From Komagataeibacter kakiaceti JCM 25156 (lineage in GTDB: Bacteria > Pseudomonadota > Alphaproteobacteria > Acetobacterales > Acetobacteraceae): DNA of 28,751 bases. The stretch lies in contig NZ_BAIO01000009.1 in NCBI RefSeq assembly GCF_000613305.1, positions 1 through 28,751 of the forward strand, in the 5' to 3' direction. The notes below the pieces were generated by a model. The model saw only the letters and a program-made list of their open reading frames with translations, ran no database searches and was not told the origin of the DNA. Position 1 is the stretch's first letter. Every line of letters starts with the position of its first letter. Both the position numbers and the translations under genes were made by a program. Shown piece after piece: positions 5,895 to 28,751 of this stretch.

Positions 5895-6056
5895 ATGTCT
5901 AAATGGACAGGTCTGTGGCGCGTACGTGGCCACGATGGCAAGGATAACCGTATTGTCGTGCTCAACGGGGAAAGGGAAGATGAAATCGATGAAAAAGATT
6001 ACATCATGAACAAGTTCGAACCGCCTGTTGAAGACCTGGAATGGCGGAAAAAGTAA
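5895..6056 (+). CDS. Small hypothetical protein, 53 residues
   Basis: The reading frame starts MSKWTGLWRVRGHDGKDN and ends VEDLEWRKK. A good ribosome binding site (GAGGT, seven bases before ATG) and a candidate promoter just upstream support it. The protein is charged, with a central run rich in Asp/Glu (GEREDEIDEKD), no membrane segment and no Cys. Base composition is lower in GC than its neighbours. I do not recognise the family. It stands alone between wrbA and cowN. Confidence 0.65.
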   Translation: MSKWTGLWRVRGHDGKDNRIVVLNGEREDEIDEKDYIMNKFEPPVEDLEWRKK

Positions 6057-6295: not shown

Positions 6296-6571
6296 TTACA
6301 TACACAGGACCTCAAGCTCCTCCAGTTTGGCCAGCGTCGCGTCATCATCCAGATCTTCGAGAATATCCTTCAGCGTCGGCAGGAAATTGTGCAGGACCCG
6401 CAGGTCATCCAACCCCTGATAATGGGCGATGACGCGCTGTTTCAGGAAGTATTCCCAGAACGGGCTGGTCTTCGTATCGAAATGCGGTTGCAGCAGCCCG
6501 AAGACTTCGGCAGTCCTGCGTTCCCATTCAACATTCCTGAAACTGACATATCGATCAATCTGTTCGGACAT
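6296..6571 (-). CDS. cowN: CowN, protection of nitrogenase from carbon monoxide
   Basis: A 91-residue protein matching CowN, which sustains nitrogenase activity when the inhibitor CO is present; it was described in Rhodospirillum rubrum and studied in Gluconacetobacter diazotrophicus. Family hallmarks are the start MSEQIDRYVSFRNVEWE, SPFWEYFLKQR, and GLDDLRVLHNFLPTLKD with the ending LEELEVLCM. Length is normal for the family (about 90). I chose ATG 6571 rather than the in-frame GTG at 6577 because the family begins there and GTGGAG precedes it closely. It is 88 bp downstream of a CooA-like regulator on the same strand, with a CooA-type site between. No nif genes are in the window, so whether the host fixes nitrogen is unknown. 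Confidence 0.93.
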   Translation of the reverse strand: MSEQIDRYVSFRNVEWERRTAEVFGLLQPHFDTKTSPFWEYFLKQRVIAHYQGLDDLRVLHNFLPTLKDILEDLDDDATLAKLEELEVLCM

Positions 6572-6633
6572 CTCCACTCACCCTGGTTTTCCTGAGCCGG
6601 GTCAGGAATGTGAAACGCCACGCGCATGCTGTC

Positions 6634-6649
6634 TGTCAGATGCCCGACA
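6634..6649. promoter_or_regulatory. CooA-type operator upstream of cowN
   Basis: TGTCA-GATGCC-CGACA is an exact match to the TGTCA-N6-CGACA half-site arrangement described for the R. rubrum CO regulator CooA. It is centred about 70 bp upstream of the cowN ATG, in the only gap between the cooA-like gene and cowN. If CooA acts about 43 bp before the transcription start, as at known coo promoters, transcription would begin near 6598. No clear -10 box was found. Confidence 0.65.
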
Positions 6650-6659
6650 TAATGGCGGG

Positions 6660-7349
6660 TCAGTTCAACGCCGTCGCGTCTCCACTGGTCCAGCTCTTCA
6701 GCAGCGCGACGTCTCCCAGGCGAAGATAACCCCGGCCCGCGCGTGAAAACGCGCCCTCGCGTATCATGGCGTTGAATTCGGTCGAGACCGTCTGCCGCGT
6801 CGTGCCCAGAAGCATGGCCATTTCCTCCATGCCAAGTGTCAGCGGCACGACCGCTCCCCGCTGCGGCCCGACACCGGCCTGCGCCGCGCAGCGCAGCACA
6901 TAACGGGCAATCCGCCCCCTGGCATGATGGAAGGCCAGATCCTCCAGCAAGGTGAGGGTCTGGCCCAGAACCCGCGCGAGACCATGGATCAGTGCGTGCT
7001 GGAGCGCCGGGTGGTGCGCCGATATCCGCTCGATGGCGGTGCGGCGGGCCATGAATAGCTGCGTGAACTCGCTCGCCTCCATCTGCAGGCGGGTATGGGT
7101 GCTGAACATGTCGCCCCGCCGGAGGTAGGCAAGGCTCAGTTCCCGATCGAAGGCCAGCAGGAAGGCACGCAGGCGTCCTGTCCTGACAATGAAGATGTAG
7201 TCCGTATCGTCAGGGTTGGTCAGGAGTTGCCCCCGGTCGAACGCCACCATCTGAAAGGCCGCCCGGAGCGGCCTTGCGTCCTCCCCCTCCAGAAGCTCCA
7301 GAATGGAGCCGGTCCATGAACATGCGGTGGCGTCATTTACGGCATTCAA
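6660..7349 (-). CDS. CooA-like CRP/FNR-family regulator, probable CO-sensing haem protein
   Basis: A regulator of about 229 residues with an N-terminal cyclic-nucleotide-like domain and a C-terminal helix-turn-helix. Similarity to R. rubrum CooA is strong around the haem pocket: DRELSLAYLRRGDMFSTH aligns with CooA EREISLFYL..GDMFCMH. The ferrous haem ligand His77 is kept (His85 here), while Cys75, the ferric ligand, is Ser. The dimer helix keeps LEDLAFH, and the recognition helix keeps TTRQTVSTEFN (CooA SSRQTTSTALN). The only in-frame start is a TTG at 7349 with no good ribosome site. One extra C or G after ATGCC (7345-7341) would instead give an ATG start reading Met-Pro-Val-Asn-Asp, and Pro2 is CooA's other haem ligand. 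It lies 39 bp after the oxygenase gene and upstream of cowN. Confidence 0.8.
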   Translation of the reverse strand: MNAVNDATACSWTGSILELLEGEDARPLRAAFQMVAFDRGQLLTNPDDTDYIFIVRTGRLRAFLLAFDRELSLAYLRRGDMFSTHTRLQMEASEFTQLFMARRTAIERISAHHPALQHALIHGLARVLGQTLTLLEDLAFHHARGRIARYVLRCAAQAGVGPQRGAVVPLTLGMEEMAMLLGTTRQTVSTEFNAMIREGAFSRAGRGYLRLGDVALLKSWTSGDATALN

Positions 7350-7388
7350 GCAAATCCCATGCCATCACCGCCCCGCCACCGTCATCCT

Positions 7389-8300
7389 TCAGGCCGCGTG
7401 GCCGTATGTCGCCGCCAGCCGTTCGCGCAGGTAATCGGCCCCGGTAATGGGCGGGTAATGCGGTGTGTCGCCAGGATTCGTGGTGATCGGCGCGACAATC
7501 GCATCGGCGTCCGGATCCAGGAAGAAGGCGACGGAATAGCGTTCGCTGGCGGGTTGCAGCACCCGGTGCGGGGTCGAGACATAGACGTCATTGCTCCACC
7601 GCATCAGGCAGTCCCCGATATTGCACACAAACGCGCCCGGTATCATCGGGGCGTCAATCCAGTCGCCCCCGCGCGGGCGCACCTGAAGCCCGGCAACGCC
7701 ATCCACCGCCAGAATGGTCACATTGCCATAATCCGTATGCGCCCCGGCACCCGGCGCGTCATCATGGGCATGGGGTTCCGCCGCGCCGTAACGCAGCAGC
7801 CGCAGGGTCGCCATGGGATGGCGGAATTTATCGGCGAAGAAATCCTCCGCCACGCCCAGATCAAGCGCGAAGGCACGGTGCAGCGCGGCCCCGACCGTCT
7901 GGCAGGCGGCGAAGTAACCCAGCATGAGATCCCGCCACCCCGGTATGTCGGGCCACGCATTGGCGGGCTCGCCAGCCGCTTCCCGGCCTATGTTGAAGGC
8001 TTCCTTGCGGTCGGGGAGTGCGGCGGTGTCCAGCCGCTCCACGCCCAGGCCGACATAGCCGCGATTGTTCCCCACCCTGCTGCGCGCGATACGTTCCTTT
8101 TCCGCATCCGGCAGGGCGAACAGCGCGCGCGAGGCATCGAACACGTTACGCAGCAGCGAGGGGTCGACCCCATGGCCGGTAATGTAGAAAAACCCGGTCT
8201 CGCGGCAGGCGCGGCCAAGGGCGGCCGCGATTTCCTTATGGTCCGCGTGGTTTCCTTCCCTCAGGCGCGTAATGTCAATAACCGGAATGTCATGAGACAT
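7389..8300 (-). CDS. 2-oxoglutarate/Fe(II) oxygenase, isopenicillin N synthase-like family
   Basis: A 303-residue non-haem iron oxygenase. The N-terminal DIOX_N part starts IPVIDITRLREG with FFYITGHGVD. The double-stranded beta-helix core has the iron triad His188, Asp190 (GAHTDYGNVT) and His245 (STPHRV), and the Arg254-x-Ser256 pair (RYSVAFF) that binds 2-oxoglutarate. The substrate cannot be told from sequence; bacterial homologues are usually annotated only as isopenicillin N synthase family. The start ATG overlaps the end of the upstream araC gene by 11 bases, so the two are likely co-translated. Downstream is the CooA-like regulator. Confidence 0.9.
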   Translation of the reverse strand: MSHDIPVIDITRLREGNHADHKEIAAALGRACRETGFFYITGHGVDPSLLRNVFDASRALFALPDAEKERIARSRVGNNRGYVGLGVERLDTAALPDRKEAFNIGREAAGEPANAWPDIPGWRDLMLGYFAACQTVGAALHRAFALDLGVAEDFFADKFRHPMATLRLLRYGAAEPHAHDDAPGAGAHTDYGNVTILAVDGVAGLQVRPRGGDWIDAPMIPGAFVCNIGDCLMRWSNDVYVSTPHRVLQPASERYSVAFFLDPDADAIVAPITTNPGDTPHYPPITGADYLRERLAATYGHAA

Positions 8301-9393: not shown

Positions 9394-10224
9394 TCAGGAA
9401 GGATGCACCACTTTGGCGGGGGGGCGATGGCGCACCATATGCCCCATGGCGGTTAGCACGATACAGGTACACACCCATGCAAGTAGCTGGATGCCCGTGG
9501 GCCGGTCCGAATAACCGAACAGCGCCTTTGCCGCCCGGCCGACCATGCTGCCATCCGACAGCAGCCACGAGGAATCCCATATGTCGTAGCCCAGCGCGGG
9601 CAGCAGGTCGTCACTGGCCAGCAGGGCGGCGGCCTGACTGGCCATGCCCGCCGCAAGGAACGTGACCAGCAGGCCGGTCACGGCAAACAGGCGGTTCAGC
9701 GGAATGACAACCAGCCCCCGGTACAGCGCCCAGGACAGCCCCGCCCCGGCCAGAACCCCCAGGACACCGCCAACCAGCATTGGCACCGGCCCGGTCCCGC
9801 TGGAGATGGCGATGCCGTAGAGGAACAGCACCACCTCCATCCCCTCCCGCAGGACGGCGACGGCGACGACGACAGCCATGGCGAGCAGCGAACGGCTGCC
9901 ACTGGCGACGGCGGCCCCGACCGCCTTCATGTCCCGCGCCATTTCGCGGCCATGCCGGGCCATCCAGATAATATGCCAGCTCAGCATCACCACCGCGAGG
10001 CACAGGATCACCGCCGAGAACACATCCTGCCCGTTACCGGACAGCGCCTGTGACAGCGCCCCGGCAAACAGCGCGAGAACCCCGGCCCCCAGAACGCCCG
10101 CCCCGATACCCCCCGCGATCCAGCGCCCGCGAAAGGGAATGCCCTGCGTCGCCGCCAGCACAATCCCCACGATCAGCCCGGCTTCCATGACTTCACGGAA
10201 AACGATCAGCAGACTGCCCAGCAT
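9394..10224 (-). CDS. FTR1-family iron permease
   Basis: A 276-residue inner-membrane protein of the FTR1/EfeU family, which imports iron. About seven hydrophobic segments are visible. Both diagnostic R-E-x-x-E motifs are present, REVME at residues 10-14 and REGME at 126-130, each in a membrane helix. Further features are WHIIWMARHGREMARDMK and the Gly/Ala-rich late helices. It is preceded by a periplasmic cupredoxin whose corrected stop is one base from this ATG, so they form a two-gene operon. This is the P19/FTR1-like arrangement rather than EfeUOB, since no EfeO/EfeB lies here. Confidence 0.93.
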   Translation of the reverse strand: MLGSLLIVFREVMEAGLIVGIVLAATQGIPFRGRWIAGGIGAGVLGAGVLALFAGALSQALSGNGQDVFSAVILCLAVVMLSWHIIWMARHGREMARDMKAVGAAVASGSRSLLAMAVVVAVAVLREGMEVVLFLYGIAISSGTGPVPMLVGGVLGVLAGAGLSWALYRGLVVIPLNRLFAVTGLLVTFLAAGMASQAAALLASDDLLPALGYDIWDSSWLLSDGSMVGRAAKALFGYSDRPTGIQLLAWVCTCIVLTAMGHMVRHRPPAKVVHPS

Positions 10225-10992: not shown

Positions 10993-12204
10993 TCAGGCCG
11001 CCAGTTCGGCATCCGCCGCCGAACCGAAGAACTCGAAGCGAACCGCCTCATCCGGCACACCAGCGGCCCTGAGCACCGCCACCATTTCACGCATGAACGC
11101 GTCCGGCCCGCAGATGTAATAGACACTGTCCGGCCGTGCCTGCGCCTTCAGCCATTCGGGGGAGAGACGGCCCGCATGCTGTGTCGTGCCGGTCTGCGCC
11201 GCCGTATCGGGCGCGGTTTCACGGCTGTAGAACACATCATGCCGAACCCGCCCGCTTGCCGCCAGCTTGCGGATGTGCCTGCCGAACGCTTCGGTCTGGG
11301 GGGTGCGTGTCGCATGCACGTAATGGATGGCCGGGGCGTCTTCACGCTCCATAAGCGTATCCAGCATGGACATGAGCGGCGTCAGGCCCACGCCGGCGCT
11401 CAGCAGCATGATCGCGGGTGTCGCCGCCCTGTCCAGCACGAAATCACCAGCGGGCGCGGAAACCTGTAGCTCGGCCCCTTCCCCCACCGTGTCATGCAGC
11501 CATTCGGACACGACGCCACCGGGGATCCGCCGCACGCTGATACGGTAGGCGCTGTCATCCGGGGCGGAGGAAATGCTGTAGTTGCGGCGTTGCGATCCAT
11601 GCACCGGCACATCCAGCCGGAAGCTGAGATACTGCCCCGGCACATGCCGCATGACAGGACGCCCGTCAACCGGCACCAGTTCAAAGGACGTGACCGTTTC
11701 ACTCTCCTTTACGCGGCGCTGGACGCGGAACGGCCGCCAGCCGACCCACCCACCCGGCGCGGCTTCATGGGCCTGATAGATTTCCTTTTCACGACCGATC
11801 AGGATATCGGCCAGGAACCAGTAGGCTTTTCCCCACGCGTCCAGAATTTCCGGTGTCGCGGCATCCCCAAGCACATGGGCGATTGCCCCCAGCAGCGCCT
11901 CCGCCACAAAGGGATAGTGTTCGGGCAGGATATTCAGGCCCGCATGCTTTTCGGCAATGCGCTCCACCATTCCGCCCAGCGCGCCCAGGTTATCAATATT
12001 CCGGGCATAGGCCAGCACCGCCAGCGCCAGGGCGCGCGGCTGCTCGCCATCCTTCTGGTGGGACATATTGAACAGGTCACGGATATCCGGGTTCGCCAGC
12101 AGGCGGCGGTACATTTCCGTCGTAATCGCAACGCCGTGTGCTTCCAGCACGGGCACGCAGGCCTTGATGATGGAACGGGTTGCGTCGTCCAGGGGAGCAG
12201 CCAT
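10993..12204 (-). CDS. hmp: Nitric oxide dioxygenase (flavohaemoglobin)
   Basis: A 403-residue flavohaemoglobin that oxidises NO to nitrate using O2 and NADH. The globin domain is residues 1-140: Tyr32 (B10), Phe45 (CD1), the haem-binding His87 in AEKHAGLNILPEHYPFV, and Glu139 near its end. The FAD domain shows PGQYLSFRLDVP and QRRNYSISSAP (FAD motif). The NAD domain shows LLSAGVGLTPLMSML and YYICGPDAFMREM. Length is standard. It is divergent from nsrR with two NsrR-type operators between, so NO-induced derepression is expected. AGGAG precedes ATG 12204. Confidence 0.97.
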   Translation of the reverse strand: MAAPLDDATRSIIKACVPVLEAHGVAITTEMYRRLLANPDIRDLFNMSHQKDGEQPRALALAVLAYARNIDNLGALGGMVERIAEKHAGLNILPEHYPFVAEALLGAIAHVLGDAATPEILDAWGKAYWFLADILIGREKEIYQAHEAAPGGWVGWRPFRVQRRVKESETVTSFELVPVDGRPVMRHVPGQYLSFRLDVPVHGSQRRNYSISSAPDDSAYRISVRRIPGGVVSEWLHDTVGEGAELQVSAPAGDFVLDRAATPAIMLLSAGVGLTPLMSMLDTLMEREDAPAIHYVHATRTPQTEAFGRHIRKLAASGRVRHDVFYSRETAPDTAAQTGTTQHAGRLSPEWLKAQARPDSVYYICGPDAFMREMVAVLRAAGVPDEAVRFEFFGSAADAELAA

Positions 12205-21352: not shown

Positions 21353-22953
21353 ATGACCGATACATGCAAGGTCCTGATGGTCTTTCCCCTCTTCAATGCA
21401 AACTCGTTCTGGAATTACACGGAAGCCTGCGATCTGGCCGGTGCGCATTATCCGGCCGCCCCGCTTGGCCTGATTACCGTTGCCGCCCTCCTCCCCAAAA
21501 GCTGGGAAATCAGGCTGGTCAACCGCAACACCGAAATTTTGACGGATGCGGATCTCGACTGGGCCGATATTGTCATGACGGGCGGGATGCTGCCCCAGCG
21601 CAATGATGCGCTGCATATTATCGAAATGTGTCACGCCCGCGGCAAGCCGGTGGTGGTTGGCGGCCCGGATGTCACATCCAGCCCGGACCTCTACCGCGCC
21701 GCGAATTTTCTGGTTCTGGGCGAAGCCGAGGAAATCATGGATGATTTCGTCACGGCCTGGCGCAATGGCGCCGGACAGGGCGTGTTCGAGGCGCCGATGG
21801 GAAAGACCGATGTCACCCGCAGCCCCCTGCCCCGCTTCGACCTGCTGAAGCTGGACCATTACCTGCATGTCGGCGTCCAGTTCTCACGCGGCTGCCCGTT
21901 CAGTTGCGAGTTCTGTGATATTATCGAACTCTATGGCCGGGTGCCGCGCACCAAGACGAATGAACAGGTCATGGCCGAACTCGATGCCCTGTATGCGCTG
22001 GGCTATCGCGGGCACGTCGATTTTGTTGATGATAACCTGATCGGCAACAAAAAGGCGCTCAAGAAATTCCTGCCAGACCTGAAGCGCTGGCAGAACGAGA
22101 AGAACTTCCCCTTCGAATTCTCGACCGAGGCCTCGATCAACCTCGCCGATGACCCCGACCTGCTGCGGAGCCTGTCGGAGACGAATTTCTTCGCCATATT
22201 CGTGGGCATCGAAAGCCCGGATACGGACTCACTGGTGCTTATGCAGAAAAAGCAGAACACAAGGCGCAGCTGCAACAGAGCATCGAGACGATCCATAAGG
22301 CCGGGATTTTCGTCAATGCCGGCTTTATCGTAGGGTTCGACAGCGAAAAGGGCAGCGTTGCGCCCGGCATGATCGAATGCATTGAGGATACCGCCATTCC
22401 GGTCTGCATGGTCGGTCTGCTCTACGCCCTGCCCACAACCCAGCTCACGCGCCGCCTACTGGCGGAGGGACGGCTCTTTTCCGGTAGTGAGCAGACGCAA
22501 TCAGGCGACCAGTGCACCGCCGGGCTGAATTTTGAAACAAAACGGCCACGTCGCGACGTACTGAACGACTACAGATCGGTTCTCAAGGCGATCTATGATC
22601 CAGCAGCCTATTTCGGCCGTGTCCGTCGCCTTGGCCGGATGCTCGGGCGTGAACGCGCGCACCGGATGGTGAAGGGCGACCTGCGCAGTTTCATGCGACT
22701 CATCTTCCGCATTCACCGTGCGGGGCCCGGAACAGGCAGGCAGTTCTGGCGCACGATGCTGGACTGCGCCCTGCACAACCCCAGGGCATTGCCATACGTG
22801 GTCATGATCAGCGCGCTTTACCTGCATCTTGGCCCATTCTCCCGGCAGGTCGTCGGTGAGATCGATCAGGAAATCAGCAACGTGGACCATGGGCGCTGGC
22901 AGGCTCCGCCGCCTGTCCTGCCCATGGGGGAAGCCGCGCTCGTGCCCGCCTGA
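21353..22953 (+). pseudogene. B12-binding-domain radical SAM protein (DUF4070 type), one apparent frameshift
   Basis: After correcting one missing base near 22260 (AACACAAGG, A run), this is one protein of about 533 residues. Residues 1-150 form a cobalamin-binding-type domain (PLGLITVAALLPKSWEIRLV, VVVGGPDVTSSPDLY). The radical SAM core has the Fe-S triad Cys181, Cys185, Cys188 in SRGCPFSCEFCDI and DDNLIGNKKALKKFL. The second frame carries AGIFVNAGFIVGFDSEKG and the DUF4070-like C-terminus (YDPAAYFGRVRRLGRML). Relatives include hopanoid methylases such as HpnP, but this is not an obvious HpnP and its substrate is unknown. GGGAG precedes the ATG. Confidence 0.85.
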
Positions 22954-25843: not shown

Positions 25844-26829
25844 TTACCAGTTCTTGGTCTGGTAGTCGTGCTGGCCCTCGACAAACCGGATGGTGCCGGA
25901 CTTGGAGCGCATGACCAGCGAATGCGTGACCGTACGCCCACCCGTGCGGTGGACGCCACGCAGCAGCGCGCCGCCTGTCACACCGGTAGCGGAAAACAGC
26001 ACGTCACCACAGGCCATGTCCTCCAGCGCCAGCTTGCGCGACGGGTCGGCATCGGGGTTCATCTTGCGCGCGCGGTCAATCTGGCTGTCATCCTCGAACA
26101 GGAGGCGGCCCTGCATCTGCCCGTTGACGCAGCGCACGGCGGCGGCGGCCAGAACGCCCTCGGGCGCACCGCCCGATCCCGCGTAAATGTCGATTTCGCT
26201 ATCATCCAGCAGGCGGCAATGGCGGCGGCCACGTCCCCATCGCTCAGCAGCGTCACGCGCGCACCGGCCTCACGCGTGCGGGCGATCAGTTCCGCATGGC
26301 GTTCCCGGTCGAGGGTACACAGCATGAGATCGGACACATCGCATTTCTTGGCCTTCGCCAGCGATTTCAGGTTGGCTTCGATGCTGTTATCCAGATCCAC
26401 CACGCCTTCGGGCAGGAAGGGACCAACCACGATCTTTTCCATGTAGATGTCTGGCGCATGCAGGAAATTGCCACTTTCCGCCAGCGCCACCACGGTCAGG
26501 GCGTTGGGCAGGTTCTTGGCGCACAGGTTCGTGCCTTCCAGCGGGTCAACGGCAATATCCATGCCGGGGCCGCCCGCCCCCACCTTTTCCCCGATGAAGA
26601 GCATCGGGGCCTCGTCCATCTCGCCCTCCCCGATCACCACGGTTCCGTCGATCGCAACCGTGTCAAAGGCGCGTCGCATGGCCTCCACCGCCGCGCCGTC
26701 GGCTTCGTTCTTGAGGCCGCGCCCGGTCCATGCCGACGCGGCGACCGCCGCCGCCTCCGTTACACGAACCAGTTCAAGGGCGAGATTGCGGTCCGTAACC
26801 TGATAGGGGTTATACCGTGAGGAGGTCAT
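25844..26829 (-). pseudogene. glpX: Class II fructose-1,6-bisphosphatase GlpX, one apparent frameshift
   Basis: GlpX removes the 1-phosphate of fructose 1,6-bisphosphate, a gluconeogenic step. The first frame has [18 protein letters not shown] and [20 protein letters not shown], the metal-binding signatures of the family. The frame is lost at about 26217 after IAAC. One added C (TGCTGG to TGCCTGG) gives [19 protein letters not shown] and continues with RGVHRTGGRTVTHSLV to the stop at 25844. The corrected length is about 328 residues, as expected. It lies between glpK and fba on the same strand with short gaps (33 and 50 bp). Confidence 0.9.
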
Positions 26830-26862: not shown

Positions 26863-28360
26863 TTACGCCGCCACGGTGGCGCTGAGCGTCCGCCGCACCG
26901 CCGTATGCCACCCCGCCACCATACTGTCGCGCTGTGCCTTGTCCATTGCAGGGCGGAACAGATGCCCGCGGGTCCAGGTCCCCTCCAGTTCGGGTATGCT
27001 GCTCCATACCCCCGTTGCCAGCCCCGCCAGAAAGGCGGCGCCAAGAGCCGTTGTCTCGACCTGCTGCGGCCGCTCCACCGGTGTGCGGAGCATATCGGCA
27101 AGAAACTGGCAGAACCAGTCATTGACGGACATTCCCCCATCAACACGCAGTGCGCTCAGCTCCCCGCCACCGTCCTCACGCATGGCGTCCATGAGGTCGA
27201 GCGTCTGGTAGGCAACCGATTCCAGCGCCGCGCGCGCGATATGGGCGGCCGTCGCGTCCAGTGTCAGGCCACAGATCAGGCCACGGGCATCAGGATCCCA
27301 GTGCGGCGCGCCCAGACCGACAAAGCCGGGCACCATGTACACCCCATGGCTGTGGGGCACGCGGGTGGCCATGTCATCCGTCTGGGAGGCATGGGTGATC
27401 AGGTTCAGCCCGTCACGCAGCCAGCGGATGGCCGCCCCCGCCACGAAAATGGAACCTTCCAGCGCATAGGTGGTCTCGCCCCCAATACGGTAGGCGATGG
27501 TGGTCAGCATGCGGTTTTCGGAGCGGACGGGCGTGGTGCCGGTATTGAGCAGCGCGAAACAGCCGGTGCCATAGGTGGCCTTGGCCGTGCCGGGCCGGAA
27601 ACAGGCCTGCCCCACCATGGCCGCGTTCTGGTCGCCCGCCATGCCCGCGACCTTCAGGGCCTCGCCAAACAGGGCGGGGTCCGTTTCACCAAAAATCTCG
27701 CTGTTGGTGCGCACGTCGGGCAGGATGGCGCGCGGCACGTTGAACAGTGCCAGCATGTCGTCATCCCACGCGCAGGTATGGATGTTGAACAGAAGGGTGC
27801 GCGCGGCGTTGGTCATGTCGGTGGCATGCACGCGCCCGCCGGTCAGCCGCCACAGCAGGAAACTGTCAATGGTGCCGCAGGCCAGCCTGCCCTGTTCGGC
27901 GCGGGCGCGGGCGCCTTCCACGTTATCCAGAATCCACGCGATCTTGGTGGCCGAAAAATACGGGTCCAGCAGCAGGCCGGTGCGTTCGCGCACTAGGGCC
28001 TCATGCCCCTGCTCGCGCATATGCGCGCAGGCGGCGGCGGTGCGCCGGTCCTGCCAGACGATGGCGCGATGGACGGGCGCGCCCGTCTCACGGTCCCAGA
28101 CCACTATGGTCTCGCGCTGGTTGGTGATGCCTATGCCCGCGATGGTGCCGGGGCCGCCCACCTTTTCAAGCGCCTCCCGCGCGGTGGACAGGACGTTGGA
28201 CCAGATTTCCTCCGCATCATGCTCCACCCAGCTGATCCGGGTAATGCTGCGCGAATTCGATACGCGCGACCGCAAGGGCGGTGATGTCGCGGTCAAACAC
28301 GATGCTGCGGGTCGAGGTCGTTCCCTGGTCGATAGCAAGAATTCTGTTCTTCTTGTTCAT
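26863..28360 (-). pseudogene. glpK: Glycerol kinase, one apparent frameshift near the N-terminus
   Basis: Glycerol kinase (ATP + glycerol to sn-glycerol 3-phosphate), about 498 residues after correction. The start [19 protein letters not shown] at ATG 28360 has GGAG before it. The frame breaks near 28240, in the conserved [13 protein letters not shown] stretch. The rest is in one frame: [49 protein letters not shown], and [19 protein letters not shown]. The length from the break suggests two missing bases or one extra. It lies 70 bp after glpD, in one operon. Confidence 0.92.
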
Positions 28361-28430
28361 TATTATCTCCTGCCCGAACGGGCGGATACTGGTTTGGGGC
28401 CGTACGCCGTTTAGGCCTACGGCCGGTATG

Positions 28431-28751
28431 TCACGAAACCGCTGGCGTCGCGACCGGCTGGCGGGCGCGCAGGTAGCATCCAGCCGGGCCGCGTCCTCAT
28501 CCGTTACATGCAGGCCCAGACGGGAGCGCCGCCACAGGATATCATGCGCGGTCTGCGCCCATTCCCGTGTTATCAGGTATTCCACTTCCCGCGCGCTCAG
28601 CCCAGCGCCGAACTGCGCGCCCATATCGGCCATGCTGCGGGCGTCGCCCACGATTTCGGTCGCGCATGAACCGTAATTGCGCACCAGACGCCAGACAAGG
28701 CTGGGGTCAAGGAACGGGGCCCGCGCCGCAAGGCGGCTGACGGCGCCTTCG
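28431..28751 (-). CDS. glpD: Glycerol-3-phosphate dehydrogenase, C-terminal part, with apparent frameshift at the end
   Basis: The C-terminal about 107 residues of aerobic, FAD-linked glycerol-3-phosphate dehydrogenase, which feeds electrons to quinone and yields dihydroxyacetone phosphate. The gene enters from the right edge. Typical sequence is [13 protein letters not shown] and [20 protein letters not shown] followed by [12 protein letters not shown]. After RLDA the frame shifts near 28475; adding one base gives [14 protein letters not shown] and a stop at 28431. Read uncorrected, the frame would run on into glpK. It is the first visible gene of the glp operon. Confidence 0.9.

Follow-up and report, generated by a model that had tools for sequence, protein, structure and literature searches.

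We analyzed a 28,751-nucleotide (nt) stretch of DNA from Komagataeibacter kakiaceti JCM 25156 (contig NZ_BAIO01000009.1, positions 1 to 28,751; the whole stretch is referred to below as the window), in which a gene for a carbon monoxide (CO) sensor of the CooA type lies directly upstream of cowN, the gene for a protein that protects nitrogenase. Both are on the minus strand in the list of open reading frames (ORFs) of the window, and the locus comprises the following features:

6296..6571, minus strand: cowN, encoding the nitrogenase-protecting protein; start most likely ATG 6571 (ORF list: 6296-6577).
6607..6612, minus strand: CACATT, a weak match (3 of 6) predicted to be the -10 element of cowN, with the same spacing as in other cowN loci.
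6634..6649, minus strand: CooA-type palindrome TGTCGGGCATCTGACA, beginning 78 nt before the cowN ATG and just past the cooA stop codon; it also fits the NifA pattern TGT-N10-ACA.
6660..7336, minus strand: cooA-type CO-sensor gene; start most likely ATG 7336 (ORF list: 6660-7349, with a TTG start); the frame is interrupted, with one base missing near 7310.
7350..7364, minus strand: sigma54 -24/-12 box TGGCATGGGATTTGC, preceding cooA and directly before the false TTG start.

The cowN ORF encodes 93 residues, or 91 counted from ATG 6571, a start that agrees with the MSEQIDRYVSF-type starts of relatives, and its product matched the CowN families above their curated cutoffs (NF033689: 94 bits versus 48; PF20543: 70.9 versus 27). 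For the regulator, the closest public protein was P0001 (Komagataeibacter kakiaceti JCM 25156), with 100% identity to the window CooA across 94% of the query; the N terminus reads MTPPHVHGPGSI in P0001 and MNAVNDATACSWTGSI in the window ORF. Alignment of the DNA against eight relative rows (two from one genome) showed the window to be one base short near 7310, and the start position of the relatives corresponds to ATG 7336 in the window. By both comparisons, the TTG listed as the start (7349) is artefactual; since it stands directly behind the sigma54 box, it would fall at or before the expected transcript start.

In a structure-sequence search, the regulator's best matches among solved structures were CooA of Rhodospirillum rubrum (1ft9; E = 9e-33) and CooA-1 of Carboxydothermus hydrogenoformans (2.5e-30), while the first solved chain not named CooA followed at 1.8e-14. 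CooA was the top match both by sequence and by fold, and the window CooA shares its fold, His ligand and recognition-helix residues with 1ft9, 2fmy and 2hkx. In the tree, the window fell among the CooA rows, with three of the four CRP/FNR outgroup rows (PF13545 paralogues of Komagataeibacter melaceti and Gluconacetobacter diazotrophicus, plus P0062) outside at 99; the fourth, L097, joined the CooA rows via a very long branch. Long branches were flagged, those of both crystallized CooA rows included, so that the position of R. rubrum CooA within the group is uncertain. The domain search gave HTH_Crp_2 and a weak cNMP_binding match only, so that the architecture of the other CO sensor, RcoM (a PAS sensor plus a LytTR DNA-binding domain, according to PMC4257681), was not found in the window regulator. 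Judged by these comparisons, the regulator is a CooA-type CRP/FNR protein. An earlier note on this DNA had proposed a CooA-like regulator beside cowN, had pointed to the motifs GDMFSTH and TTRQTVST, and had named phylogeny as a check; both genes and both motifs were found, and the regulator indeed groups with CooA.

To describe the distribution of such loci, one genome per GTDB species was scanned with a CooA alignment, and the best 80 of 97 relatives were kept as CooA-type loci. cowN was present at 73 of these 80, and the pairing is therefore beyond chance. At 69 of these loci, cowN lies downstream of cooA in the same orientation, its ORF opening no more than about 210 nt from the cooA stop codon or before it; in the others it is turned round (L010 and L012) or lies at a distance of 1.1-2.5 kb (L021 and L031). 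A nifH gene was found above cutoff in all 14 tested genomes of CooA-type loci versus 3 of 14 control genomes. Among 299 Acetobacteraceae genomes, 8 carried cowN and 12 nifH, all eight cowN carriers being among the 12, and CooA (E < 1e-20) was found in six, every one of them a cowN carrier. In the genus of G074, a genome syntenic with the window, CooA occurred in 2 of 19 genomes and nifH in 3, both CooA genomes included.

Two groups of Acetobacteraceae loci depart from this arrangement. CooA of Gluconacetobacter johannae and Gluconacetobacter azotocaptans (L010 and L012, with cowN inverted) is 44-45% identical to that of the window, while CooA of G. diazotrophicus is 79% identical, and in the tree it groups with Rhodopseudomonas and Beijerinckia rows, which suggests that the module was acquired twice, separately, in Gluconacetobacter. 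The cowN genes of genomes G270 and G090 (L084, L085, L118 and L119) have neither a CooA neighbor nor a CooA site; by eye, they stand behind ORFs resembling DAHP synthase and nicotinate phosphoribosyltransferase, and a similar small ORF follows.

The consensus of the CooA site is given as tGTCg-N6-tGACa (PMC8047169). TGTCGGGCATCTGACA at 6634-6649 is the sole exact match to TGTCR-N6-YGACA in the window (0.09 expected; at least one match in 8 of 100 shuffles). Upstream of cowN, an exact site was found at 39 of 79 loci and a site with at most two mismatches at 76 of 79 (shuffles: 0.02 and 12.8), compared with 2 and 10 of 78, respectively, in a control stretch 620-800 nt before cowN. Only L018, L084 and L085 had no site within two mismatches among the 79 loci scanned, and the genomes of the last two (G270 and G090) gave no CooA match either, a natural negative control (n = 2). 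A second conserved element, T-A-n-A-n-T, lies at +29.5 to +34.5 from the palindrome center (59 non-redundant sites of 76 aligned); the mean match to TATAAT was 3.00 there versus a median of 1.15 over offsets past the palindrome, and 29 of the 59 sites reached at least 4 of 6. If this element is the -10 hexamer, the palindrome is centered at -41.5, the classical class II position of CRP/FNR activators.

The promoter of cooA looks different. The box TGGCATGGGATTTGC is the sole exact sigma54 match in the window; allowing one mismatch, the pattern occurs at chance level (6 found, 6.6 expected), so the evidence lies solely in the exact match and in its conservation. A sigma54 box stands at the same place before cooA in all eight acetic-acid-bacterial rows (one scoring 9 of 10, the others 10; two G. 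diazotrophicus-type rows are near-identical), and a box scoring at least 9 precedes cooA at 28 of 79 loci overall (shuffle mean 0.7).

Heme ligands were compared across 82 rows, a count that leaves out the four outgroup rows and four Chloroflexota rows without the His (L077-L080). The His that binds ferrous heme (His77, within GDMFSTH), which the earlier note had seen as retained, is present in the window protein and invariant across all 82 rows. The same note had read the Ser at the R. rubrum position 75 as the loss of the Cys that serves as ferric ligand. The Ser is indeed there, but we reject the idea of a peculiarity of the window protein: Cys75 is restricted to the two crystallized CooA proteins, 80 of the 82 rows are without it, and 70 of 82 have Ser or Thr (Ser 39, Thr 31, Val 9, Cys 2, Ala 1), which makes Ser one normal state in cowN-linked CooA. 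The Azotobacter vinelandii locus L050 likewise has Ser at position 75 (GGIYSTH), and CooA of this bacterium reportedly responds to CO (Youn et al., 2004). In PMC6955866, the Cys75-to-His77 ligand switch is described as unique to R. rubrum CooA, and C. hydrogenoformans CooA as using the ligands Ala2 and His82 without a switch. For the window CooA we predict that the N terminus and the His together ligate the heme, with no redox-dependent change of ligand. As regards the N-terminal amine as second heme ligand, P0001 starts MTPPHVHGP, and residues 1-8 of its model are below a predicted local distance difference test (pLDDT) score of 50. Two other N-terminal candidates for a new heme ligand were rejected: the Cys of the window ORF (MNAVNDATACSW) belongs to the artefact frame, and the His-x-His of several relatives (MPPHVHGP) is absent from P0008 (MPLRNDGSP).

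Taken together, we read the window as carrying a CooA-cowN module for the protection of molybdenum nitrogenase against CO, with a probability of roughly 0.88. Under nitrogen starvation, the observed sigma54 box would serve as a promoter, probably driven by NifA, from which cooA is transcribed. The resulting CooA dimer would hold ferrous heme by the conserved His, probably together with the N-terminal amine, and CO would displace the N-terminal ligand and switch CooA on, as in characterized CooA proteins. At the palindrome 6634-6649, whose sequence and spacing are observed, CO-bound CooA would then recruit sigma70 polymerase to cowN in class II fashion (-41.5), and CowN would let nitrogenase work despite CO, as published for the G. 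diazotrophicus protein. Expression of cowN would need both nitrogen starvation and CO, because CooA would be made only when nitrogenase is.

Several observations weigh against this reading. Seven of the 80 CooA-type loci (L017, L053, L059 and four Chloroflexota loci) have no cowN on the stretch compared, and 4 of the 12 Acetobacteraceae genomes with nifH are without cowN; the nif genes of the window's own host are inferred from its relatives. The -10 hexamer of the window, CACATT, matches at only 3 of 6 positions, and a simple sigma70 scan, which requires a -35 box, gave no promoter before cowN in the window. The same scan found no terminator between cooA and cowN, although this carries little weight as shuffles yield just 1.0. 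In none of the eight acetic-acid-bacterial rows did the 220 nt upstream of the cooA sigma54 box contain a TGT-N10-ACA. Position 117 holds Ala, as in 23 of 82 rows, where R. rubrum CooA has Gly. Finally, the cooA frame is broken in the window as read, and a genuine frameshift in the strain would kill the sensor.

The alternative that survives best disputes a single step, namely, that NifA acts directly at cowN, jointly with CooA, through an overlapping TGT-N10-ACA, as proposed for G. diazotrophicus in PMC8047169. There, cowN RNA is reported to rise 30-fold in N2-fixing growth without added CO and higher still with CO, with no CO-dependent rise in ammonium, and the palindrome of the window fits the NifA pattern, as do the cowN sites of 42 of 79 loci. 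However, the NifA pattern TGT-N10-ACA is necessarily part of every exact CooA palindrome (TGTC...GACA), while many betaproteobacterial cowN sites (as at L020, L022, L026 and L040: TGTCGGCCAGCCGACG) retain the CooA half-sites and have lost TGT-N10-ACA, and a shared NifA site is thus not general. Nor was a sigma54 box of at least 7 of 10 found within 90 nt past the cowN site at the 18 loci examined, where the conserved -10-like element occupies the region instead. A looser scan covering 60 of the 79 cowN loci (those with a start codon found) gave sigma54-like matches of at least 8 of 11 within 200 nt before cowN at seven (L010, L030, L036, L044, L052, L058 and L066), of which only the match at L036 lies between site and start; the window, G074, K. 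melaceti, G. diazotrophicus and the Acetobacter loci gave no such match upstream of cowN. These scans suggest that in these bacteria cowN itself lacks a sigma54 promoter, and we consider direct action of NifA at cowN unlikely. With somewhat better than even confidence, we favor instead a class II sigma70 CooA promoter (-41.5) for cowN across Proteobacteria, with NifA not acting at cowN and the published NifA site a by-product of the palindrome; nitrogen dependence would then enter only via the cooA promoter (of the sigma54 type in acetic acid bacteria), and read-through would account for the basal, CO-free expression of cowN.

A second alternative concerns the strain and not the kind of module: the base missing near 7310 could be a true frameshift, with the module decayed and cowN no longer under CO control. 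Speaking for it is the length of the window itself, one base shorter than its relatives at this point. On the other side, P0001, from a record named K. kakiaceti, is intact and elsewhere identical, and the palindrome and the sigma54 box are intact too. The window is collinear with G074 over the compared stretches (pieces of 79-94% DNA identity) and with K. melaceti for its first 16 kb, and of 27 G074 ORFs, chosen mechanically and some of them perhaps spurious, 9 are divided between reading frames in the window, as indel errors in its sequence would explain. The frame break near 7310 was treated as a sequencing error on these grounds, P0001 being taken as the intact form of the window CooA, and true decay appears improbable. 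Further window genes split between frames, which likewise indicate indel errors, lie at 1-1523, 21353-22950, 25847-26829 and 26863-28684: eutB (family match) and three genes identified by eye (a B12-type radical SAM gene, a glpX-like gene and glpK). The glpK split shows in the ORF list only, those of the other three in the comparison with G074.

In FNR, N-terminal cysteines hold an iron-sulfur cluster. That the regulator is a CRP/FNR protein for another ligand (an iron-sulfur cluster, cyclic AMP or other), which would make its adjacency to cowN uninformative about CO, is very improbable, given CooA as top match by sequence and fold, an invariant His77, the outgroup rows outside the CooA group (three of four) and the first 140 residues of P0001, in which there is no cysteine and hence none of FNR type.

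The CooA-cowN module has close published counterparts. For G. diazotrophicus, a 2021 report describes an algH-cooA-cowN cluster with a CooA site before cowN and induction by CO, and predicts control of cooA by RpoN (PMC8047169). Like the window, this bacterium (L003) has the order cooA-cowN, a CooA 79% identical to that of the window, and the same sigma54 box before cooA; its exact palindrome starts 75 nt before the cowN ATG (78 in the window). Unlike the algH-containing cluster in that report, the window has ORF 7389-8300 as the next gene upstream of cooA, with no NCBIfam match and by eye a 2-oxoglutarate/Fe(II) oxygenase. Rhodobacter capsulatus (L066 and L076) shares the adjacent genes and an exact palindrome, TGTCATCCGGCTGACA, whereas its CooA is only 37-38% identical and has Val at the Cys75 position. 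In this species, NifA is said to lead to CooA production and CooA with CO to turn on cowN (Hoffmann et al., 2014). R. rubrum CooA (1ft9) and C. hydrogenoformans CooA-1 (2fmy and 2hkx) have Cys at position 75 where the window has Ser, and their genes, unlike that of the window, sit with CO-oxidation genes. According to PMC4257681, rcoM is the neighbor of R. rubrum cowN, and the adjacency of cooA and cowN in Rubrivivax gelatinosus is already in print, together with possible regulation; this betaproteobacterial locus (L065) has two mismatches in its cowN site, whereas the window site is exact. The local CO-defense circuit that the earlier note saw in an acetic acid bacterium is thus supported as a reading, but the novelty is not, the same module having been published for G. 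diazotrophicus; the window adds one more sound case of a circuit already known and does not represent a new type.

Elsewhere in the window, a gene for a nitric oxide-inducible flavohemoprotein lies a few kb upstream of the module (10993-12204; 507 bits, cutoff 432), with an EfeU-like iron permease gene between the two (9394-10224; 151 bits, below the cutoff of 255). Beyond cowN, on the plus strand, 5895-6056 may be a small gene of 53 residues (P0063), with no Pfam family above cutoff.

With this locus, a Komagataeibacter-type vinegar bacterium joins the likely diazotrophs with a known CO-defense switch, and the idea of a Cys loss in its CooA is corrected. The printed proposal for G. diazotrophicus, in which NifA and CooA act at one overlapping site, may be wrong, and the geometry of the cowN promoter offers a direct way to test how the nitrogen signal is combined with that of CO.
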